A stretch of DNA of 64,000 nucleotides from Sphingobium sp. BYY-5 (GTDB lineage Bacteria > Pseudomonadota > Alphaproteobacteria > Sphingomonadales > Sphingomonadaceae), in the NCBI RefSeq assembly GCF_022758885.1, contig NZ_JALEBH010000002.1, positions 744,001 to 808,000 on the forward strand. Direction: 5' to 3'. Below the pieces are notes generated by a model, which made no database searches, was not told the DNA's origin, and saw nothing but the letters and a program-made list of their open reading frames with translations. Position numbers and translations under genes: made by a program. Positions 3,364 through 45,721 of the stretch are shown here, in pieces. Positions within the stretch are counted from its first letter, which is position 1. The number at the start of each line of letters is the position of its first letter.

Positions 3364-3606
3364 TCGGGATCGTAACACTTTCAGTTTCATGCCCCGGCAG
3401 GCGCTGGGGCAAGCTCCTCCGAAATGTCCTTTCGAAACTCCGCCCCTTCTTTGCCGTTCAGCGTCGAAATGAACGATCCCGCGTGCGGAAGGTCCGCTCT
3501 TAAGCGGGTCGCAAGCTTAGCGCCGTGTCGGTGGTCAGATCGACTGTCCTCCCTGTTATGAGCTGCGAGAATGGAATTGGCGGCTTGCCCTGACCGTCCA
3601 AACTTC

Positions 3607-3635
3607 GTATCGCGAATCATTATCATTCGCGATAC
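3607..3635. promoter_or_regulatory. Perfect 11-bp inverted repeat with Fur-box-like core
   Basis: GTATCGCGAAT and ATTCGCGATAC are exact reverse complements separated by CATTATC. The core, read on the minus strand, contains GATAATGAT, which matches Fur-box hexamers. It ends 16 bp before the preferred TTG start of the TBDT gene, placing it where a repressor would block transcription. It could alternatively act as an RNA hairpin. That it is a Fur/Irr-type site is inference. Confidence 0.6.
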
Positions 3636-3651
3636 TGATGCGGGGGTTTTC

Positions 3652-5763
3652 TTGTCTATATTCCGCGCGGCGCTGTTTGCGTCTATTTCCTTCTGCGCGT
3701 CAGTGGCTTCCGCGCAGGAAGCGCCTGCGTCGTCACCAGATGCGGCCATGGACGAAGGCGATCAGATCATCGTGACAGGCCGCGCCCAACGCCTCTACCG
3801 CACCGAAACCACAACCGTGGGCAAAAGCGCTGAGGACCCGCTCGACATTCCGCAGGCTTTGCAGGTGATCAACAAGGATCTTTTCGCTGACCAAGGGGCA
3901 CGCGACGCGACCGACATCTATCGCAATATTTCCGGCGTCAGTTTCTTCAGCTATGCTGGCGTCACCTTCCGCGGATTTCGCCAGGACCAGTCTTTCTACG
4001 ACGGCATGCGGGGCAACCCGTTCATCGGCTTTTCGGTGCCTCAGCTTTTCAATATCGAACGGGTGGAGGTGCTGAAAGGACCGGCGGGGCTTTTCTTCGG
4101 TCCAGGCTCCCCCGGCGGCATCATCAACTATGTGTCGAAGGTTCCCGGCGACATCAGCGCCATGCGCCTGGTGGCGACGGCGGGCAATTATGACCGGCGT
4201 GGCATATCCGCCGAAGCGACCGGCCCGATCGACAAGGACGGGATCGTCACCTACCGCCTCGGCGGCTTTTACGAGGCGATGAACCCCTATCGGCGCAATA
4301 CGAAGAATGTGTCGCTGATCGGCGACGGCGGTCTTGCCATCAAGACCAACGAGGGCGGCAAGCTGACGCTCCAGGCGACGGTCTACGACAATGATCTTCA
4401 GGCAAACCGCTTGCGCGGCATATTGACCGACAATGACGGCAATTTCCTGACGGACATTCGCTGGAACGCGAACGAACCGACCGATTTCCTGCATCTGAAG
4501 TCTCAGGCCTATCAGGCGCGTTATGCGACCGCGATCGGGGACCGGTTCACGTTCGACGCCGGGGTCCGCTACTTCAAGGCGACCGAAACGCAGCAATATC
4601 ATGAGCCGCGCGGGTTGGTCGCTGGCAGCACCGATCTGGTCGCGCGCGAGTTTCGTGACCAGATCCGCGATGTCGATGGCCTGTCTTTTTCCGCCAACCT
4701 GACAGCGCGGGTCGACATATTGGGCATGGAGCATAAATTCCAGACCGGTACGGACTGGTATGACGAGACGAGTGTGCTCAATTCGCGCATCCTGCGAGCG
4801 GGCGTTACGCCGCTTAGCCTCAGCAATCCCGTCTATACCAACAGCGCGCGCGATGTGGCGCGGGCCGCACTGCTGCCGTTCACCGTCACGGATACGCGCA
4901 CGAAGCGTCAGGGCGCTTATCTTCAGGACCAGATCAGCCTCAGCGATGCCTTCAAGCTGGTCGGTGGCGTGCGCTACGACAAGTTCGAGGATCGCGTGGT
5001 CAATACTGCCTCTTATGAGGATGACGACATTACCTTCCGCACCGGCGCGATCTACAAGCCGCGCAAGGATGTCTCCATCTATCTAAGCTGGTCGCAAAGC
5101 TTCGAACCGCAGACGGCCGCCAGCCAGAATGGCGACGTCGGCGGTCCCTTTGCGCCTGTTACCGGCGACCAGTTCGAAGGCGGCATCAAGACCGACCTGT
5201 TCGATGGCAGGCTCCAGGCCAATCTGGCCGCCTACCGCATCGTGCGAAAGAATATCCTCCAGGCCGATACCAGCCTCCCACCCGTGAATGGCCAGGACCA
5301 GTTACGCCCGATCGGCGAGGTGACGAGCAAGGGGTTCGAGATCGACCTGTCGACCGACATTACCGCCAATTGGGTGGCACTGGTCAACTATGGTTATAAC
5401 GACACGAAGATCACCGGCACGATCGCGGGACAAGCGATAACCAATGCGGTGGGCAACCGCTTCGCCAATGCGCCCAAGCACAAGGTCGGCTTCTGGACCC
5501 GCTATCAGGTGCCAGCGATCGATGCGGCCTTTGCAGTTGGCGGCGAACATGTGTCGAAGCGCATCAGCCTGTCAGGGCAGACCGTAAAGCCCTACACGAT
5601 CTTTGACGCATCGATCACCAAGGGGCTTGGCTTTGCCGAACTGATGCTGCGTGTCGATAATATATTCGACAAAGTCTATGCCGCTTCGGGCTTTTCGGCG
5701 CAGAGCGGCCACTTTCCGGGCGAGCCGCGCACATTTCTGGCCGAACTCCGCTTCCAGTTCTGA
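3652..5763 (+). CDS. TonB-dependent siderophore-type outer-membrane receptor
   Basis: About 703 aa from a TTG start at 3652, which has GGGGG six bases upstream and opens straight into a signal peptide (LSIFRAALFASISFCASVASA). The frame is open back to an ATG at 3571, but that would put the Fur-like palindrome inside the gene and add 27 residues before the signal peptide. DQIIVTGR is the TonB-box region. The plug domain includes IERVEVLKGPAGLFFGPGSPGG, typical of ferric-siderophore receptors. The protein ends in LRFQF with C-terminal Phe, as outer-membrane barrels do. The PepSY gene follows after 2 bp, supporting an iron-uptake operon. Confidence 0.9.
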   Translation: MSIFRAALFASISFCASVASAQEAPASSPDAAMDEGDQIIVTGRAQRLYRTETTTVGKSAEDPLDIPQALQVINKDLFADQGARDATDIYRNISGVSFFSYAGVTFRGFRQDQSFYDGMRGNPFIGFSVPQLFNIERVEVLKGPAGLFFGPGSPGGIINYVSKVPGDISAMRLVATAGNYDRRGISAEATGPIDKDGIVTYRLGGFYEAMNPYRRNTKNVSLIGDGGLAIKTNEGGKLTLQATVYDNDLQANRLRGILTDNDGNFLTDIRWNANEPTDFLHLKSQAYQARYATAIGDRFTFDAGVRYFKATETQQYHEPRGLVAGSTDLVAREFRDQIRDVDGLSFSANLTARVDILGMEHKFQTGTDWYDETSVLNSRILRAGVTPLSLSNPVYTNSARDVARAALLPFTVTDTRTKRQGAYLQDQISLSDAFKLVGGVRYDKFEDRVVNTASYEDDDITFRTGAIYKPRKDVSIYLSWSQSFEPQTAASQNGDVGGPFAPVTGDQFEGGIKTDLFDGRLQANLAAYRIVRKNILQADTSLPPVNGQDQLRPIGEVTSKGFEIDLSTDITANWVALVNYGYNDTKITGTIAGQAITNAVGNRFANAPKHKVGFWTRYQVPAIDAAFAVGGEHVSKRISLSGQTVKPYTIFDASITKGLGFAELMLRVDNIFDKVYAASGFSAQSGHFPGEPRTFLAELRFQF

Positions 5764-5765
5764 CC

Positions 5766-6950
5766 ATGGATCGGGTTCGGACGAGAAAGGGCCGATCGCT
5801 CTGGTGGGTGGTGCATAGCTGGATCGGCCTGAAACTGTCGATCTTCCTGACCTTCATCCTGGCGACGGGCACCTTTGCCGTGTTCGCGCATGAAATCGAC
5901 TGGTTGGCGACGCCCGCGATGCGGGTATTGCCCCGGTCTGAACCGGTCGCGTCATGGGGGGCGTTGGCGCAGGCGGCGGCCCGCGCTGCACCCGATGCCC
6001 GGCTCCAGACCCTGTACGCACCGATCGACTCCTGGTTTACGGTCGAGGCCTGGGTCAGTCGCGGCAAAGGCGCGCCCGAGCGCGTCTATGTCGATCCCTG
6101 GACGGCTAAGGTCACCGGCAGGCATGGCTGGGCCAATGTCCACCGTTTCCTGCGCCAGACCCATCGCCACCTGATGCTGCCGACGAAGATCGGCATACCG
6201 ATCGTCTGTTCGCTGGCCTTGTTGCTGGCGGCATCGCTGGTGTCGGGCATCGTCACCTACAAGAAATGGTGGCGCGGCTTCTTCCGGACGCCGCGCGGCG
6301 GCGATGGCCGACGGATGACCGGCGATCTCCATCGCCTGATGGGCTTGTGGAGCCTGTGGTTCATGGCGCTGATCGCGCTGACAGGCCTGTGGTATTTGGT
6401 GGAGACATTGGGAGGTAACGCCAAGGTGCCCAAATTGCCGGAGGTGGTGGCTAGTGCGATGCCGACCGGGGCCTCGCTGGACCGGCTGGTTGCCAAAGCG
6501 CGCAGAGCCGATCCTGCGCTCGATATTCGGGAAATCCGCTTCACGCCCGACAATGGCGTCATCTTCCTGGGCCAGTCATCCGCCTGGCTGGTGCGCGATC
6601 GCGCCAATGCCGTGGTCGTCGATCCGGCTACGTCGCAGGTCGTGGCGCGGCTGGACGGACGTGCATTAAGCGCGCATCAGCGCATTTCCGAAATGGCCGA
6701 TCCGCTGCATTTCGGCACGTTCGGCGGCATGTGGACGAAAGCCATCTGGTTCCTGTTCGGCGCGTTGCTGACGGCGATGGCCGTCACCGGCACGATGATC
6801 TACGCGATGCGGCTGGTCCGATCGTCGCGATCCGACGCTGGCAGCTTGAAACGCGCCTGGCAGGGGATGGGCGCCTGGGGATATGTCGGCTTTGCCCTCA
6901 TTCTCCTCACCCTGATCCTGACCCCAGGGGCGATTGGGGGAGCGAGTTGA
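5766..6950 (+). CDS. PepSY-associated transmembrane protein (iron-uptake associated)
   Basis: A 394-aa inner-membrane protein with the PepSY_TM layout. One N-terminal helix (SIFLTFILATGTFAVFAHEIDW) is followed by a periplasmic PepSY domain, with helices near residues 140-165 and 195-215, a second periplasmic domain, and C-terminal helices. Conserved VHSWIGL and the GDLHRLMGLWSLWF region are seen in ferric-siderophore reductase-like partners of TBDTs. It starts 2 bp after the receptor stop, so the two are almost certainly co-transcribed under the same Fur-like site. It probably helps release or reduce iron at the inner membrane; the exact reaction is not established. Confidence 0.85.
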   Translation: MDRVRTRKGRSLWWVVHSWIGLKLSIFLTFILATGTFAVFAHEIDWLATPAMRVLPRSEPVASWGALAQAAARAAPDARLQTLYAPIDSWFTVEAWVSRGKGAPERVYVDPWTAKVTGRHGWANVHRFLRQTHRHLMLPTKIGIPIVCSLALLLAASLVSGIVTYKKWWRGFFRTPRGGDGRRMTGDLHRLMGLWSLWFMALIALTGLWYLVETLGGNAKVPKLPEVVASAMPTGASLDRLVAKARRADPALDIREIRFTPDNGVIFLGQSSAWLVRDRANAVVVDPATSQVVARLDGRALSAHQRISEMADPLHFGTFGGMWTKAIWFLFGALLTAMAVTGTMIYAMRLVRSSRSDAGSLKRAWQGMGAWGYVGFALILLTLILTPGAIGGAS

Positions 6951-9153: not shown

Positions 9154-10407
9154 TTAGCTGTCCTCAAAGCGCGGCGCGCGGTCGAAATCCTCCTTGCCGA
9201 ATGGCCGGTCGGTAAACAGATAGCCATAATAGAAGCGGCGCAGCGCGGCATGATAGGCCCTGATCCGGTCTTGATAGGCAAGCTGCGCCTGCACATCGCT
9301 GTTGGCGAGACGCGCCAGCAGCCCCTGCACGCCGACGGACGGCAGTACCCAGCCGACAGCATGGGCCACCCGGTCGCGGGCCTTCAACCCGTTTCGATAG
9401 GCGGCAACCTGCGGCGCGACCTTCTCGTCGCCGACCTGATGGAAGGCGAAATACCATTTATAATGGAAGGATTGCGGCAGCGGCGGGCTGCTGGCCCAGT
9501 CGGGATTGGTTGCATAAAATGCCCGCATCGTATCCTCGCGGGGAATATCCCAGGCGCGATTGACCGCTTCGCGTTGCGCAAGGGTAAGCTCGACACCTTC
9601 GCCTACCGGAATCGCCTGGTTAATCGCGACATGGGCGATGGTCGGCAATACCAGCGTGATGACCAGCCACAGTCCCGCCAGCGTCGCGGCATTGGCAACC
9701 GAACTCCAGGCGAACCGGCCAATGAGCAAAGTCACGCCGATCCAGAAGGCAAGATAGCCGATCATGAGCCCCAAAACGGTAAGAGTCGACAGGAAAGCGA
9801 CGCCTGACATGAGTGCGCCAACCAGTAGCGGAGAGGCAATCGCGAGATACAGCAGGCCAAAACGCAATGCCACGCGGCGCAGCCACAGGTGCTGCCCTCT
9901 CGCCGGCAGCGCATTCAGCATGCGCAGCCGTCCTGCTTCCCGCTCGCCCGAGACCAGATCATGGAACAGCGCGATCACGAAAAGCGGCGCGAGATAGACT
10001 AGCACGAACGCAAAATCGAAGCGGCCGGGCAAAGCCAGTTCGGGATTGAAGGCTTCCCCGTCATAGAGTTGGGCCTCAAGCCCAAGGGCACGCACGCGCA
10101 GGATATAGGGCGATACGTCCCGCAACCCGATCGCCGCGAAGGCCAGCGGGGCTGGCGAGTCCCAGGTCGGATGAAAGCTGTAATAGGCCGCGCTGCCCGC
10201 ATCCTTTTCATGATCCACCCATTTGGCGATGGCCGCGATATCCTCTGCCTGCTGCGGCGCGATGCGGGCGATCACGGCGCGTTGATGCGCAATCTCGATC
10301 ATGCCCGCGACTACACTGGCGGCCGAGAGCAGCAGAACGAGTCCCAGCGCGACAAGCGCCATTCGCGCGCGCAGCAGCAGGCGCAATTCCTGACGAATGA
10401 GATTCAT
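9154..10407 (-). CDS. ABC-2 type permease, DUF3526 family (second permease)
   Basis: 417 aa from the ATG at 10407, which overlaps the TGA of the preceding permease gene (ATGA), so translation is coupled. The frame is open farther upstream, but the overlap and typical MNLIRQELRLLLR opening settle the start. One N-terminal helix (VALGLVLLLSAASVVAGMI) is followed by a large extracytoplasmic domain, then about five closely spaced helices from near residue 130. A C-terminal segment of about 180 residues is again outside. The block FHDLVSGEREAGRLRMLNALP is a conserved cytoplasmic loop of ABC-2 permeases. With the ATPase and the first permease it forms a complete exporter. Cargo is unknown; the neighbouring precursor-like peptide is a candidate. 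Confidence 0.8.
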   Translation of the reverse strand: MNLIRQELRLLLRARMALVALGLVLLLSAASVVAGMIEIAHQRAVIARIAPQQAEDIAAIAKWVDHEKDAGSAAYYSFHPTWDSPAPLAFAAIGLRDVSPYILRVRALGLEAQLYDGEAFNPELALPGRFDFAFVLVYLAPLFVIALFHDLVSGEREAGRLRMLNALPARGQHLWLRRVALRFGLLYLAIASPLLVGALMSGVAFLSTLTVLGLMIGYLAFWIGVTLLIGRFAWSSVANAATLAGLWLVITLVLPTIAHVAINQAIPVGEGVELTLAQREAVNRAWDIPREDTMRAFYATNPDWASSPPLPQSFHYKWYFAFHQVGDEKVAPQVAAYRNGLKARDRVAHAVGWVLPSVGVQGLLARLANSDVQAQLAYQDRIRAYHAALRRFYYGYLFTDRPFGKEDFDRAPRFEDS

Positions 10408-11846
10408 TTCTGGATCCTCTGAAGACGTCGTGCGGCGGGGATCAGGGCGAGGGCCGCGATCAACAGCCAGACCAGCAGCATGACCAAGCCAGGCACGCCC
10501 GCACTTACCATTTCCCCCGCCGGGGCAGGTTTGAACCTGAACACCGACATGGATTGCCAATTGTGTGAAGAGATCCGCTTTCGTTCATCGGCGCCAGCGT
10601 CCTGCGCGGTGTCGTCCGAGTATCTGACGGCGTCCGCCTGGAGCCTGTTCAGCCGCTGGATGAGGCCGTAGCGATAGGCCTCCGCCTGGCCGAGAAAACG
10701 GCGATGTCCTCTAAGGTCGGTGCCCGCTGCCGCCATCGACAGGCGTCGTAGCGCAAGGGTCGGGCTGGCGATGCCGAAACCGTCCATCAGCCCGCTCTGC
10801 GCAGCCTGCGTCGCAAAACTCCTAACTGCATAATCGTCGAACAGGCCAGAGGTCAGCTTCTCGCCTTCCATGCCCAGCAGGCCCTTGTAGTTGACCGGCA
10901 GATCCTCGACCCGTGCTACGCCATATTGACGCAGAACCTTCTGCTTGAAGGCCGAGAAGAACGGATCGTCCGGGTTGTGGCTGTCGCCCAACTGCCGCAG
11001 ATCGCGCTGGATCGCGATATCGGTTTCCAGCTTTGTGGCGAGCGGATGCGCCTGCGCCGCGACATCGGGCGCGACGCGCGGCAGGAGGATGACAACCACC
11101 GCCCAAAGCGCAATCAGCGCCAGCAGCGCATCGCGGCTGCGGGCGGCAAGCGCGGAACCCAGGATGACGATGACGGCCCAGAGCGCCAGATAGGCGGCAT
11201 AGCCGCACGCGATCAGCGCCATCGGTCCGGCAAGTGCGCCCGGCTGTCCCGCGATGAGGATGAAGCCGATCATGCCGGGCAGGCCGATCAGAACGGCGAC
11301 CGATCCCAGGGCCAGCAACTTGCCCCCCAGAAGCCGGCGCGCAGACACGCCCTGCACCAGCAATTGCCGCAACGTGCCCTGCTGTCGCTCACGCGCCACC
11401 ACGCCATAGCCCAGGAAGATGAGCAGGAGTGGTGCGATCACCTGTAACACGAAGGCAGGCGTCAACTGGCCGAAGCGGACCAGCAGCGATGATTGGCGCA
11501 CATCCCCGAAATTGGCGGTATTCTGCCGATGCCCCTCCAGAAACATGCTGTTGCCCGTGAAGGCATCGACACCGGGGTCGAAGGCCGCAAGTGGCCCCAG
11601 CGGACGAAAGATGAAATGGCCATAATGGACCACGCGATGGGGATGTCGGTCGGGCTGCGCGTCAAAAGCCTGGCTCGCCTGCGCCTGGAAACGGGCACGC
11701 TGTTGCGCGATCCCGCGCTGGTGGGCCCAGCTGACAAAAGCGGCCACCAGCGCCAGCACTATCAGCAGCGCGAACGCGACGACAGCGACGCGGTTGCGAC
11801 GCATCAGCCGCAGTTCGTCGCGCGCGATCAGGATGACCGGACTCAT
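10404..11846 (-). CDS. ABC-2 type permease, DUF3526 family (first permease)
   Basis: 480 aa, same architecture as the next gene: N-terminal helix (VAVVAFALLIVLALVAAFVSW), long extracytoplasmic domain, a block of hydrophobic helices, second external domain, and a final helix (VMLLVWLLIAALALI). VVARERQQGTLRQLLVQGVSARRLL is the conserved ABC-2 loop that contacts the ATPase. The ATG overlaps the ATPase gene's TGA, and its own stop overlaps the second permease start. It shares the DUF3526-type fold with its neighbour, so the pair probably forms a heterodimer. Confidence 0.8.
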   Translation of the reverse strand: MSPVILIARDELRLMRRNRVAVVAFALLIVLALVAAFVSWAHQRGIAQQRARFQAQASQAFDAQPDRHPHRVVHYGHFIFRPLGPLAAFDPGVDAFTGNSMFLEGHRQNTANFGDVRQSSLLVRFGQLTPAFVLQVIAPLLLIFLGYGVVARERQQGTLRQLLVQGVSARRLLGGKLLALGSVAVLIGLPGMIGFILIAGQPGALAGPMALIACGYAAYLALWAVIVILGSALAARSRDALLALIALWAVVVILLPRVAPDVAAQAHPLATKLETDIAIQRDLRQLGDSHNPDDPFFSAFKQKVLRQYGVARVEDLPVNYKGLLGMEGEKLTSGLFDDYAVRSFATQAAQSGLMDGFGIASPTLALRRLSMAAAGTDLRGHRRFLGQAEAYRYGLIQRLNRLQADAVRYSDDTAQDAGADERKRISSHNWQSMSVFRFKPAPAGEMVSAGVPGLVMLLVWLLIAALALIPAARRLQRIQK

Positions 11847-12580
11847 GCGGCCGCCGCCTCGCGCGCGAATTTGCGATGCAGTTCGCGCACGTCGAAGCGT
11901 TCCTCACCCTGTGCGCTGGCTTCATCGACGATGCGACCAGCCTCCAGAAAGCCGATCCGGTCGGCGATGTCGGTGGCGCTCAGCAGGTCATGCGTGACCA
12001 TCAACACCGCCGCGCCCCTGCGCGCCACGCCATGGACCAAAGCGTTGAAATCGGCCGTTGCGCGCGGGTCCAGCCCCGATGACGGCTCATCGAGCAGCAG
12101 CACCGGCACTTCACGCAGCAAAGCGATCGCGATCGCCACTTTCTGGCGCATGCCCTTGGAAAAGCCGCCCAGTCGCTTGTCCCAGGCCGATGGCTGGAGG
12201 CCTGTCGCCGCGAAGGCTGTATCGATCGCGGCAGGCTCTGGCTGCCGCCCGGAGAGAGCAAGTAGATAGGCGGCATTCTCCCGCGCGCTCAGATGTTCGT
12301 AGAGCGCTACATTTTCGGGAACATAGGCGATCTGTTCGCGTGCCTTGTCCGCTTCATCCACGGGATCGAAGCCATCGATCCGCACTGTGCCGCTGTCGGG
12401 CCGGGCAAAACCCAGCAGTGCCGAAAGCGTGGTCGATTTCCCCGCGCCATTGCCGCCGAGCAGTGCGTAAATCTCCCCCGCCGCGACATGCAGCGTCAGG
12501 CCGCGCAATACGCTGTGGCTCCCGTAGGACAGTTGGACGTCGGATAAGGCGATGCGCTGGCCGTTGGCGGTCAGGGACAT
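11843..12580 (-). CDS. ABC transporter ATP-binding protein
   Basis: 245 aa, one nucleotide-binding domain. Walker A GGNGAGKST is at about 42-50, Q-loop near 83, signature LGGFSKGMRQ at about 137-146, Walker B VLLLDEP with catalytic Glu at about 160-166, D-loop SSGLD, and the H-loop in MVTHD near 196. It is the first gene of an overlapping three-gene unit (ATPase, permease, permease). A 12-bp palindrome lies 61 bp upstream, and a 301-bp gap separates it from the cupin-like gene, so it probably has its own promoter. Confidence 0.9.
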   Translation of the reverse strand: MSLTANGQRIALSDVQLSYGSHSVLRGLTLHVAAGEIYALLGGNGAGKSTTLSALLGFARPDSGTVRIDGFDPVDEADKAREQIAYVPENVALYEHLSARENAAYLLALSGRQPEPAAIDTAFAATGLQPSAWDKRLGGFSKGMRQKVAIAIALLREVPVLLLDEPSSGLDPRATADFNALVHGVARRGAAVLMVTHDLLSATDIADRIGFLEAGRIVDEASAQGEERFDVRELHRKFAREAAAA

Positions 12581-12640
12581 GAATCAGGCTCCTTGGCTAG
12601 TCGCTTAAACATTCCCAAGCAGACGAGATATGTCAATGAC

Positions 12641-12652
12641 ATGTTATAACAT
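12641..12652. promoter_or_regulatory. 12-bp perfect palindrome, candidate operator of the ABC operon
   Basis: ATGTTATAACAT is exactly palindromic, set in AT-rich sequence 61 bp before the ATPase start. No regulator gene of the GntR or TetR class is adjacent, so the cognate protein is unknown. Confidence 0.45.
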
Positions 12653-12717
12653 TATAGATTAACCATCTTGTAATGCCCTTCGTAAAGGACCGCGATCCGA
12701 TATGTGACATTGCCTCA

Positions 12718-12768
12718 TGAAGCGTGGCGGGCAAATCCGGGGGATTATTCACCACCCGGGACGCTTCA
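12718..12768. mobile_element. 51-bp IS3-end scar (paired inverted termini)
   Basis: TGAAGCGT at 12718-12725 and ACGCTTCA at 12761-12768 are inverted, and the right side extends to CCCGGGACGCTTCA. That 14-base sequence is identical to the terminal repeat of the intact IS3 element at 44454-45774. It looks like a solo-end or deletion scar left in the gap between the cupin-like gene and the ABC operon. Confidence 0.55.
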
Positions 12769-12881
12769 GTTTCCACTCATTCTGGTTCATAGGCGCACCG
12801 CTGGGAATGTACGTCGGTCATCACGGCCTGATGTCGCAAACATTTGTGTGCGTTCTGTTTCGCGCCACCACTCTGCCGGAT

Positions 12882-13526
12882 TCACTGTGACGATGCGATG
12901 ATAGAGGAGACGCGGTGGGCGTCGTCGAGCACATATTGCACGCTCCATTCGTCCACACGCGGACGGGGCATCACGTTGAGCGTCACGCTAAAATCGGAGG
13001 GCCAGTGCTGCGAATGATAGTCGGCTCCCTTTTCGACGAACCACACCGCAGCGTCAGAAAGTGAGTGCTCCGAACCTTGAAGCAAAGCGACCGGATCACC
13101 GATCCCGCGATCGGGATGGTGCGCCGGATCGCGCCAGAAAGTCGATGTATAGCCCGGCCCAAGCAGGCAGGTCGTAAAAAATTCGAAATAGTGGTTGTGG
13201 ATCACATCAACCGACAGAAACCGCCTGTAGCTGTCGGGCGCGGTGTTGACGTAAGGCATCCACAAATTGATGCGCGCAAAGAAAGCTGGCCTGCTGCAGA
13301 TCGTAAACGACTGCGCTCCACTGAGCCGCGGCCAAGTCTTGGCGAGAGCGTTGCCATGAACGAACGTGCGCAGCAGGGCGTGATCGTCACGCAGCACTGC
13401 GATTTCCTGGGCGATAAGGTCCATCTGCGACGCCCAATCGCCAGCAAAGATTGTGTCGAGTCGGTCCAGCGTTTCGGCGACCGATGACGAGCCCGATGCG
13501 CTGCACGTGTCAGAAAAGGCGATCAT
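12882..13526 (-). CDS. Cupin-like protein, candidate peptide-modifying metalloenzyme
   Basis: 214 aa. It carries a near-canonical cupin motif 1, with H110, H112, E115 and G123 in IHNHYFEF and the following strand. A second-motif-like stretch follows with H171, H174 and N184 (YHSQHWPSDFSVTLN). These would supply a mononuclear metal site, as in cysteine-dioxygenase-like and other cupin oxygenases. The ATG overlaps the upstream stop (ATGA), so it is translated with the 293-aa protein. No signal peptide. The family is not one I can name. Its place behind a small GG-type peptide makes a peptide-tailoring role an attractive inference, not an observation. Confidence 0.65.
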   Translation of the reverse strand: MIAFSDTCSASGSSSVAETLDRLDTIFAGDWASQMDLIAQEIAVLRDDHALLRTFVHGNALAKTWPRLSGAQSFTICSRPAFFARINLWMPYVNTAPDSYRRFLSVDVIHNHYFEFFTTCLLGPGYTSTFWRDPAHHPDRGIGDPVALLQGSEHSLSDAAVWFVEKGADYHSQHWPSDFSVTLNVMPRPRVDEWSVQYVLDDAHRVSSIIASSQ

Positions 13527-14404
13527 GACACCTTTAGTCGTGAAAGGGCGGCACTGGCAGCAGTTCGCGCTGCAGGTAGGGGTGCGGCAGCGATACGCTC
13601 AAGCAACGCCAAGCCGGCGGCCGGCCGGATACGGCCGAGCGTCTGTGCCATCTTCCACTGTGTGAACATATGTGGTTCTTCGCCTTCGGGCGCCAGGAAC
13701 ATGGTCGCAAGGCAATCCGCTTCGTCGCCGCGCAACAAGCCGGGCGTTCTGGTTAATTCACTGGCCAATGTAGCGAAGAAATAATGCGCGGTGCTGACAG
13801 GATTATTGAACGAAACGGAACGCACGGTCCTGCTGTGCTCATCGAATGCCACGTCGATCTCATGACGGAGCTCACCGTTGAAGCGCAACAGCATTACTCG
13901 CTCGCTCGGCGTATTGAGTTGAACCGCGATAAGTCCGGCGGGAACAACCAACGTGTCGCCTTCGCGAAGTGGAATCGCATGGATCTGTCCGAGCCTTGCG
14001 CCAGCCGGAATGTCCTGAAGTGTCGTTAAACCATCGACCGCAGCCCAGCGTAGCGCGAACGGTGCCTTACATTCGACGATATGAATCACCGCCGCACTCG
14101 CCAGGACCGAAAACGACCGATACTCGGTCTCCGTGCGAATAATGACCGAACTCCAGCGGTCTTGTGTTTCCGCCACGACGAACTTGTCGCTGCCAGACAG
14201 CGAGCTCACCGTTTCTTCATCATGTCTATCACTGCGAACGCGCGATAGCGCAGCGTGGTATTGGGTTGTCCGCTTATATTCCGCGATCCAATCGGCATCA
14301 CCGTCGCCCAAAAGGTGTGGCGCGCGCCCTTCCGCAAACAACTGCTCTAAAATATCATACAAATACAGTGTTTCCAGCAGTTTGACTGGTTGCAGCTTTT
14401 GCAA
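13523..14404 (-). CDS. Uncharacterised protein with cupin-like beta core, partner of the 214-aa cupin
   Basis: 293 aa, no signal peptide or membrane segment. Residues 1-70 are helical. About 75-200 is a run of beta strands resembling a jelly roll (VIIRTETEYRSFSVLASAAVI, then LREGDTLVVPAGLIAVQL, a typical cupin second-barrel pattern) but without an obvious metal triad. The C-terminal 90 residues are helical. It may be a non-catalytic partner, a precursor-binding protein or an enzyme of an undescribed type. It follows the 43-aa peptide gene after 76 bp containing an attenuator, and overlaps the next gene by four bases. Confidence 0.6.
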   Translation of the reverse strand: MQKLQPVKLLETLYLYDILEQLFAEGRAPHLLGDGDADWIAEYKRTTQYHAALSRVRSDRHDEETVSSLSGSDKFVVAETQDRWSSVIIRTETEYRSFSVLASAAVIHIVECKAPFALRWAAVDGLTTLQDIPAGARLGQIHAIPLREGDTLVVPAGLIAVQLNTPSERVMLLRFNGELRHEIDVAFDEHSRTVRSVSFNNPVSTAHYFFATLASELTRTPGLLRGDEADCLATMFLAPEGEEPHMFTQWKMAQTLGRIRPAAGLALLERIAAAPLPAARTAASAALSRLKVS

Positions 14405-14462
14405 GATAGCAGGCCGGAAGCGCTGCTTTTGGCAGACAATCCGGCCTGTCGATCAAGATATC

Positions 14463-14495
14463 AAATAAAAAAATGCCCCATTACGCGGGGAACAT
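14463..14495 (-). terminator. Attenuator-type hairpin with U-run at the end of the peptide gene
   Basis: On the minus strand CCCC and GGGG plus ATG and CAT pair around a 7-base loop with a two-base bulge, followed by seven T then ATTT. The stem overlaps the last codons and stop of the 43-aa peptide gene. Such leaky terminators commonly sit between RiPP precursor genes and their modifying genes to raise precursor expression. Confidence 0.55.
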
Positions 14496-14612
14496 CCAGT
14501 AGAAAATAACCGCAACCGCCGGCAAGTGAATTACGGGTTCCGTGCTGCCGCCAGGCAGGATCGTGGTATCGAGATCTTCGAGTTCAAACGAATCGATGGT
14601 TTCATCAGTCAT
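14481..14612 (-). CDS. 43-aa RiPP-precursor-like peptide with GG motif
   Basis: Found by reading the minus strand. It has a strong AAAGGAG ribosome site about 7 bases before the ATG at 14612. The N-terminal half is acidic (MTDETIDSFELEDLD), with an FELEDLD segment reminiscent of the F-N/D-L-D leader motif. It reaches PGG at residues 20-22. The last 21 residues are hydrophobic with a C-terminal aromatic run (residues 33-41 AVAVIFYWM, ending FPA) and no Cys or Lys. Acidic leader, double-Gly site and hydrophobic core are the hallmarks of an exported or cleaved precursor. The following hairpin, two coupled proteins and ABC exporter fit. Leader/core assignment is inference. Confidence 0.6.
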   Translation of the reverse strand: MTDETIDSFELEDLDTTILPGGSTEPVIHLPAVAVIFYWMFPA

Positions 14613-15975: not shown

Positions 15976-17110
15976 TCACGACCTAACACTACTTTGGCAA
16001 AAATGTGTTGGGATGTCTGGTGAGGCTGCCCCCGCAGTGAGGGCAACGCCTTGGCGGTGAGCGAGACAAGCGGTCAAGGATGGCTTGGCGCACTGCAGGC
16101 AGGTTGGGCTGAGGGGGTGGGCCGAGGACTCTTTTTTCCGTCCCGCCTGAGCGAGCCTCCGGGATTGTAAGAAGGCGTAGGCAATCATCGACATCAAGGC
16201 ATGGCGGTGAAGTCCGCTCCAGGATCGTCCCTCGAAGTGATCCAGTCCCAGTTCTTCCTTGAGTTGCTGATGGGCGTGTTCACAGATCCAGCGCGCCTTG
16301 ATCGCGCCAGCGAGAGCCTTGATCGGGGTATCAGCGGGCAGATTGGAGAGATAATATTTGCGCTCACCATTCGAGCGATGCTCACCCACCAACCAGGCTT
16401 CCTCGCCCGGCATGTGCTGGGCTCCGGCAGAGCCGATCCGCTGGGGCGCGCCATCGGCAATGTGCACGCGCATGGCAGCAAAGCGGGCCGTCAGGCGTCC
16501 CTTCGTTCCCTTGCGCCAACTGACCTGTTGCCACTTCGCGCCTTCGAGCATGGCGTGCGCAGCCATGGATTTGACGTTCAGCACATGACGCACCCGTGGG
16601 CGACCGCGGCCTGCGACCGGGAAGATCAGTTGCACATCCGCCGGATAGACTTTCTGATGCCGGGGGATACCCAGGCTACGCGCACTCAGTGCCTGTCGGA
16701 ACGGAGCGGACAGCCCGTAACCGGCATCGTCCAGCACACAGCCAAAGCGCACACCGGCAGCGATGAACGATCGATCTCCTCAATCGCGACCTCCGGTTTC
16801 GTGCGGTATTCCTGCAAAGAGGCAGGCACGCCCGCCTTGTCCATGCGCGCGGTATCGCTCGTCCAGCTGTCCGGCAGGAACAGCCGCAAGCTCAGCATTG
16901 AGGGGAACTTCGCCTGAGGCCAGTGTCACCGACACCGGTGTCTGGCAGTTCGCATTCTTGCCCAGCGCCGTGGCGTATTGGGGCGCGACGCCAACGGAGG
17001 CCTTGCCCTTCTTGGGCAGGGCGGTGTCCTCGATGATCAGCCAGAGTCCTATATGCTGATCCACGGCTATCCTTCATCTGATGCTGGGGCCGGTCCAAAA
17101 TCGAGAGCCC
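15976..17110 (-). pseudogene. IS701-family transposase, truncated with frameshifts
   Basis: Homologous pieces occur in order in different minus-strand frames: LIIEDTALPKKGKASVGVAPQYATALGKN (about 17040-16930), then LRLFLPDSWTSDTARMDKAGVP with YRTKPEVAIEEID (about 16900-16750), then FGCVLDDAGYGLSAPFRQAL to the C-terminus (16750-15976). At least two frameshifts separate them and the first roughly 80-100 residues are missing, so it cannot make active transposase. It lies between LysE and a LysR gene. Confidence 0.85.
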
Positions 17111-44492: not shown

Positions 44493-45401
44493 TCAGGCAG
44501 CCATATCGAGGGTCTCAATGGCCGCATAGTAGTTAGCTTCGGCCTCGGCGGGTGGGATGTAGCCGAGCGGGCCGAAAAGGCGATGGTTGTTGTACCAGTC
44601 GACCCAGCTCAGCGTCGCCATTTCCACCGCCGATGCGCTTGGCCAGGACCGCTGGCGCCAGATGACCTCGGCCTTGTAAAGGCCATTGATCGTCTCGGCC
44701 AAAGCATTGTCGTAACTGTCGCCGACGCTGCCGACCGAGGGCACGAGGTTGGCCTCCGCCAGGCGCTGGGTGTAGTTCATGGCGAGGTATTGCACGCCCC
44801 TGTCGCTGTGGTGGATCAAGCCGTCATCCGGGCCGGGTCTGCGCGCATGGATCGCCTGCTCAAGGGCATCCAGAACGAACCCGGCCGTGGCTGAAGTACT
44901 GACCTTCCAGCCCACGATGCGCCGCGCATAGGCATCGATCACGAAGGCCACGTAAACGAACCCTGCCCAGGTGTGGACATAGGTGAAATCGACTACCCAC
45001 AGGGCGTTCGGCCGGTCCACACGAAACTCCCGGTTCACCTTGTCGAGCGGGCATGGCGCCTTGGGATTGCTGACGGTCGTGGTCGTCTTCTTCCCTCGAC
45101 GAATACCGGCCAGCCGCATGCTACGCATCAGTCGCTCGACCGTGCACTTGGCGACATCAAGGCCCTCGCGCCGCAACTGATGCCAGACCTTGCGCGAGCC
45201 GTAGAGTCCGAAGCTGGCCTCGTGAACGCGCCGGATCTGCTCGCACATGTCGTCATCCCGGCGCGCACGGGCGGAACGCTTCGCCGGATCGGCAAGACGG
45301 GCCGCGTGTTCGTGATAGGAGGACGGGGCGATCGCCAGTTCGCGGCAGATCGGCTCGATACCCAGGTCCTCGCGATGGACGTCGATGAACGACATCATCA
45401 T
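44493..45401 (-). CDS. IS3-family transposase OrfB
   Basis: 302 aa with HTH_21 and integrase core. Catalytic DDE residues are visible in [18 protein letters not shown] and [15 protein letters not shown]. The start overlaps the end of orfA by four bases, allowing coupled or frameshifted OrfAB production as usual for IS3. Length and motifs are complete, so it is probably active. Confidence 0.95.
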
Positions 45402-45721
45402 CTCTCGCGGCGGTCGAGCTCCGCCATCGCAAAATATGCCGACGCCTTGCGAAGGATCTCGTTGGCTCGACGGAGCTCCTTGACCTCGCGCTCCAGCAGC
45501 TTGAGCCGGGCCTTATCATCAACACCCTGCGCCGCTGGTGCCGCCCGTCGGCCTGCCTCCGTGCGGCACCAGCGGCGCAGCGTCTCGGCCGTGCAGCCGA
45601 TCTTCGAGGCAATCGAACTCATCGCCTCCCATTCCGAGCCGTAATCCGCACGGTGCTCGCCAACCATTCGCACCGCTCGATCACGGACCTCAGGCGAAAA
45701 TCTGTTTCCCATCTTGCTCAT
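45398..45721 (-). CDS. IS3-family transposase OrfA
   Basis: 107 aa with the N-terminal HTH ([13 protein letters not shown], then [16 protein letters not shown]) and C-terminal leucine-zipper coiled coil ([28 protein letters not shown]). It binds the IS ends and multimerises with OrfB. Confidence 0.95.

Follow-up and report, generated by a model that had tools for sequence, protein, structure and literature searches.

A short peptide gene and two coupled cupin-type proteins in Sphingobium sp. BYY-5: a candidate divergent member of a RiPP-like three-gene system not yet described

The genes at 14612-12882 on the minus strand of a 64,000-nucleotide stretch of Sphingobium sp. BYY-5 DNA (contig NZ_JALEBH010000002.1, positions 744,001 to 808,000; hereafter the window) encode a 43-residue peptide, a 293-residue protein and a 214-residue protein. 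With somewhat better than even confidence, we assign them, as a divergent member, to a so far undescribed system of three genes that resembles the clusters for ribosomally synthesized and post-translationally modified peptides (RiPPs), and in which a short precursor-like peptide (A) is followed by proteins of two families that we call F1 and F0. The linkage and order of these genes, the coding nature of A in relatives, the homology of both proteins and their predicted folds are the established part of this reading. An earlier note had described six minus-strand genes here as one undescribed RiPP-like locus with a dedicated ATP-binding cassette (ABC) exporter; all six open reading frames (ORFs) were found at the given positions, in the order and with the overlaps described, and an unnamed set of a precursor-like peptide and two cupin-type proteins does recur in other genomes, but the dedicated exporter is not supported. 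The features of the three-gene unit are as follows.

14628-14622 (-), ribosome-binding site AAAGGAG of the peptide gene, read in the sequence
14612-14481 (-), gene for the 43-residue precursor-like peptide, ATG start; N-terminal half acidic, tail hydrophobic
14490-14466 (-), terminator-like hairpin and T-run on the peptide stop codon, a possible attenuator
14410..14448 (-), 9-bp GC-rich hairpin 5' of the gene for the 293-residue protein (76-nt spacer, z -2.44)
14404-13523 (-), gene for the 293-residue F1-type protein, with a cupin-like middle and a C-terminal HEAT-like repeat
13526-12882 (-), gene for the 214-residue F0-type protein, a 3-His cupin with a predicted thiol-dioxygenase fold (H109, H111, H170)

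The two larger genes are coupled, as had been claimed, through a 4-nt ATGA overlap, and the first of them starts with TTG, the earliest ATG, GTG or TTG past the upstream stop. The 214-residue protein matched 0 Pfam families, and NCBIfam returned nothing credible for the peptide or for either of the other two genes; in these scans, neither protein was placed in a known metabolic family, and the F0 family as a whole gave no credible match in either database. By profile comparison, the 214-residue protein matches the ∼300-residue proteins of F0 with a probability of 99.3% over 201 columns, and it carries an HxH...H set (H109/H111/H170) that is invariant across 32 F0 members, in line with the mononuclear-metal cupin site noted earlier for one of the two proteins. 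At least 2,269 F0 relatives at E ≤ 1e-5 are present among the 7,999 candidates scored in a large protein set, and the best 120, where their sources name them, are mostly called "transposase" or "hypothetical protein". The public name is not borne out: none of the 32 members has a transposase match in Pfam. The Pfam dioxygenase families likewise match neither the 214-residue protein nor any of the 32 members, and no PDB sequence match was found. Comparison with cysteine dioxygenase (CDO) shows that its fold (predicted) and its 3-His site are both present in F0. Judged by sequence and modelled fold, the 214-residue protein is probably the catalytic subunit. It has five close relatives at 45-58%; close relatives were not found in plasmids, in viral contigs or, using an alignment of those relatives, in the genome_contigs collection.

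F1 is a ∼320-residue protein that precedes F0, carries a C-terminal HEAT-like repeat and is predicted to adopt a cupin fold without invariant His residues; the fold is taken from the F1 structure model of a relative, not of the 293-residue protein itself. In the Pfam and NCBIfam scans, the F1 family matched HEAT repeats only, and in Pfam the 293-residue protein matched HEAT weakly and cupin below threshold (20.4 bits against a cut-off of 22). A profile built from 15 diverse F1 proteins scores the 293-residue protein at 46.5 bits, whereas 54 other window ORFs reach at most 9.4 bits and 1000 shuffles at most 7.6 bits, and hhalign aligns the two with a probability of 94.9% over 147 columns. With a profile of Erythrobacter-type F1 proteins, the hhalign probability for the 293-residue protein was 1.1 and a search of its own genome came back empty. 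Because the Erythrobacter-type profile missed the protein and the diverse profile found it, we regard it as a divergent F1, and probably as the partner subunit.

The association of a short peptide gene with F1 and F0 was followed in named loci and in chosen regions. A search of genome_contigs with the F0 alignment gave 407 pattern stretches, of which 399 encode F0, and 80 named loci were kept from the F0 scan, belonging to sphingomonads, erythrobacters and three organisms labelled Alphaproteobacteria only. F1 is present in 79 of them, the exception (L209) beginning at a contig end. Directly upstream of F1, a precursor hidden Markov model (HMM) finds a match in 78 of the 79 loci, and in the remaining one (L192) F1 lies at contig base 10; there is no match elsewhere in 32,184 frames of the 80 loci and a further 39 regions. 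Twelve of these loci, together with four of the regions, supplied the HMM seeds and are not independent; without them the count is 66/67. The 39 regions were chosen by hand, not at random, from match lists of family, class and phylum draws. F1 is held by 36 of them and is missing from L037, L082 (at a contig end) and L083 (where the match has two stops). A short ORF that is preceded by a ribosome-binding site and has a hydrophobic tail is seen in 26 of the 36 and in 13/924 control windows, with a hydropathy cut-off that was fixed after the peptides had been inspected; counting the HMM matches too, 32/36 have a precursor. A short precursor gene beside putative maturation proteins, kept as a unit as in RiPP clusters, is therefore found throughout most of both sets. 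Homologues that lack an adjacent small ORF, which the earlier note had named as a refuting result, did not appear in 78 of the 79 named loci, although in some distant loci no such ORF is detectable.

The precursor is itself conserved as a protein. Purifying selection is evident in its ORF (ratio of nonsynonymous to synonymous change, pN/pS, 0.18 over 16 independent pairs), and across 88 aligned precursors (97 less 7 without a start by our rule and 2 without the motif pattern), four columns hold P in 100%, G in 99%, D in 97% and Y in 93%. A conserved leader is joined to a hydrophobic tail, and while tails diverge strongly between lineages, gene order is kept. Cys is present in 6/88 precursors and absent from 82. 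The peptide had been described as a GG peptide; a short ORF does precede the set, but GG is not the feature held in common, the usual motif being LPxLDxxxGxFG. Seven loci (L034, L039, L047, L049, L076, L084 and L085) have EVGGxxC-type precursors, in which GG, with a Cys three residues on, replaces the D...Y[DE] tail. If the window peptide were cut after GG (residues 21-22), its tail would have 21 residues.

The location, coupling and composition of the window peptide suit the precursor family, to which it is assigned mainly on position. Among 450 window ORFs of 30-70 residues, only three, the peptide included, match the hydrophobicity of its C-terminal half, and it alone pairs such a half with an N-terminal half of charge ≤ -4, a combination chosen afterwards. 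Summed over 27 divergent precursors, its similarity is reached by 3/3000 shuffles that keep the composition of each half.

Outside the family of the window, the gene set is rare. A search with the 214-residue protein found a match in 142/397 genomes of that family (E ≤ 0.01), ten of which lie above 1e-5 and are not counted secure. A draw from the class gave matches in 5/385 genomes, one of another family; two draws from the phylum gave 15/398, two of other families, and 10/299, one of another family. In the families of the former two genomes, 7/157 and 6/119 genomes match. Of 11 regions taken from two other families within the phylum, several resemble RiPP clusters in content. L231 runs peptide, F1, F0, ABC ATPase, ABC-2 permease, HlyD, second ABC ATPase and MacB; in L232, the peptide, F1 and F0 are accompanied by two TldD/PmbA peptidases; L240 combines three tandem diverged peptides with F1, F0 and an ABC ATPase; L233 contains three F1-F0 pairs, of which one has a detected peptide, along with ABC, HlyD, MacB and S49 peptidase genes; and in L237 an ABC ATPase lies some way downstream. 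Inspected by eye, the genes that recur beside the sphingomonad operons have a housekeeping look, are mostly on the opposite strand, and are so where directly downstream; export or leader-processing genes were not seen among the same-strand recurrent neighbours. One recurrent neighbour, ∼3.6 kb away, resembles signal peptidase I in its sequence.

Several observations weigh against a precursor system, or against the place of the window locus within it. For every member, RiPP chemistry is a prediction. The family HMMs do not recognize the window peptide (E 8 and 12, ranks 27 and 36 of 1,450), and its best single similarity is reached by 78/3000 shuffles. Among the 7,997 best candidates, those scored in the large protein set, the 293-residue protein matched only itself. 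Four of the 36 F1 regions show neither an HMM match nor a qualifying short ORF (L071; L076, 0.01 short of the cut-off; L080; L087), a precursor by the set rule is found in only 5 of the 11 regions from the two other families and missing from six, and F1 is unrecognized in L239, in L241 and at one F0 of L238. By eye, no same-strand gene recurs directly downstream of the sphingomonad operons in more than seven loci, and the housekeeping-like setting speaks more for a conserved role in the cell than for an antibiotic that is exported. These neighbours are also consistent with a peptide that is no precursor but serves an F1-F0 enzyme with some other substrate as a small structural or regulatory subunit, as are the single precursor match per locus in the 78 named loci and the near-invariant positions in leader and tail. 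We nevertheless consider the subunit explanation rather unlikely, since L240 holds three tandem diverged copies, L232 has a TldD/PmbA pair, exporters stand in L231, L233 and L240, and the tails diverge strongly between lineages under a constant gene order. It is very improbable that the short ORF is a leader only, the translation of which attenuates the two downstream genes. The window does show two hairpins here, one of them terminator-like and placed on the stop codon; however, such hairpins occur at 6 sites in the scanned stretch versus 3.0 expected, so that the first is weak evidence alone, the encoded protein is under purifying selection in relatives, and in most named loci with a peptide it ends about 1-32 nt ahead of the F1 start, which leaves scant room for an attenuator.

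The remaining three genes were the basis for the dedicated exporter of the earlier note. They follow the 214-residue protein gene as listed here.

12653-12631 (-), conserved promoter/operator-like block AATGTTATAACATGTCATTGACA, between the 214-residue protein gene and the ABC trio
12580-11843 (-), ABC ATPase, 245 residues, Pfam ABC_tran; neighbour
11846-10404 (-), ABC-2 permease with DUF3526, 480 residues, by Pfam; neighbour
10407-9154 (-), second DUF3526 permease, 417 residues, by Pfam; neighbour

Six genes on one strand, with 300-bp spacing, and the ABC exporters beside some F1-F0 sets of other families would be in line with one RiPP operon that includes its own exporter, yet the distribution of the trio makes this quite improbable. 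The first permease occurs at 73-79% identity in 14/93 other genomes of the genus, with the trio as a whole at 72-81% (permeases) and 82-88% (ATPase), and a search with the 293-residue protein found no match in any of these 14, the 214-residue protein not having been searched in all. The genus gave one weak, stop-broken match to the 293-residue protein, in a genome outside these 14 (G273). In 12 of the 14, a divergent TonB receptor begins 139-365 bp away, and a block AATGTTATA..AT..CATTGACA 5' of the ATPase is found in the window and in each of the 14, two of which have one mismatch. This pattern occurs once in the window (12653-12631); it was drawn from an alignment that includes the window, and its chance value therefore lacks independence. 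Elsewhere, the proteins scanned next to F1-F0 gave no DUF3526 match at E ≤ 1e-5. Because the conserved block separates the 214-residue protein gene from the exporter, the six genes probably form two units of transcription, and the synteny with the TonB receptor, together with the common block, argues that the trio is probably its own unit, an older resident belonging to a TonB-receptor/ABC module, which at most exports the product by co-option. The block is not claimed as a Zur box, as it does not fit the motif GTTA-5N-TAAC given in PMC4176598.

Elsewhere in the window, 3571-6950 encodes a TonB siderophore-type receptor and a PepSY_TM protein, and its DNA shares 90% identity with part of L126, ∼2.5 kb past the same ABC trio there. 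Two further loci of one genome (L131 and L132) have relatives of the trio, and in L131 the ATPase is directly preceded by a TonB receptor; four more TonB-receptor-type proteins are seen among those scanned at 32935-62575. Near the peptide operon, a DDE_5 transposase ORF (15976-16752) covers only the end of its profile and is probably a remnant. Finally, an Rfam ALIL pseudoknot (45326-45440, 91.9 bits) adjoins an ORF with rve and HTH_21 domains (44493-45401), which together we take to resemble an IS3-type element.

The three-gene RiPP-like system that we favor has partial likenesses to known ones. As in RiPP clusters, a short peptide of leader and tail is encoded upstream of coupled proteins that may modify it, and some relatives also have tandem precursors, TldD/PmbA peptidases and ABC exporters. 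It differs in that YcaO, LanM, radical SAM, DUF692 and lasso B/C proteins, the usual RiPP enzymes, are absent from the 19 window proteins scanned, as had been noted, and from the F0 and F1 alignments, its core pair being two cupin-fold proteins of unnamed families. CDO uses three His residues, and the substrates of ADO and PCO are N-terminal Cys residues of proteins. F0 has their predicted fold and an invariant HxH...H set; however, it has no Pfam dioxygenase match, and because 82/88 precursors are without Cys, thiol oxidation cannot be its common reaction. The putative F1-F0 pairing recalls MbnB-MbnC and TglH-TglI, in which a metal enzyme needs a partner for peptide binding, although these are DUF692 enzymes with another fold. 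As described in PMC12257519, PbsQ of a biphenomycin-type cluster is a cupin-like hydroxylase of a RiPP residue that works beside an MNIO, an arginase and a B12 radical SAM enzyme. PbsQ, as there described, and F0, by prediction, would both be cupin-fold proteins that act on a RiPP, but PbsQ is JmjC-related, whereas F0 resembles thiol dioxygenases. Literature searches, with most subscription papers outside their coverage, found no account of the peptide/F1/F0 set.

In the mechanism that we propose, F1 and F0 would form one complex, F1 would recognize the N-terminal leader of the peptide, and the F0 metal would drive an oxidative change in the Val/Ile/aromatic tail, which would then be released or kept as the product. 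Tentatively, and at a little under even confidence, we suggest a new RiPP class in which a two-protein cupin complex with a thiol-dioxygenase fold oxidizes side chains of such a tail. The class would be a fixed cellular system in Erythrobacter-like genera, and the product may therefore be a peptide-derived cofactor, a signal or an envelope component and not an antibiotic. A peptide-maturation system without a named enzyme family would thus be added, small at three genes, partly concealed under the name "transposase", and present in about one third of the genomes sampled from the family to which the window belongs. If the tail is indeed oxidized, the thiol-dioxygenase fold would gain a chemistry on peptide side chains that works without cysteine.

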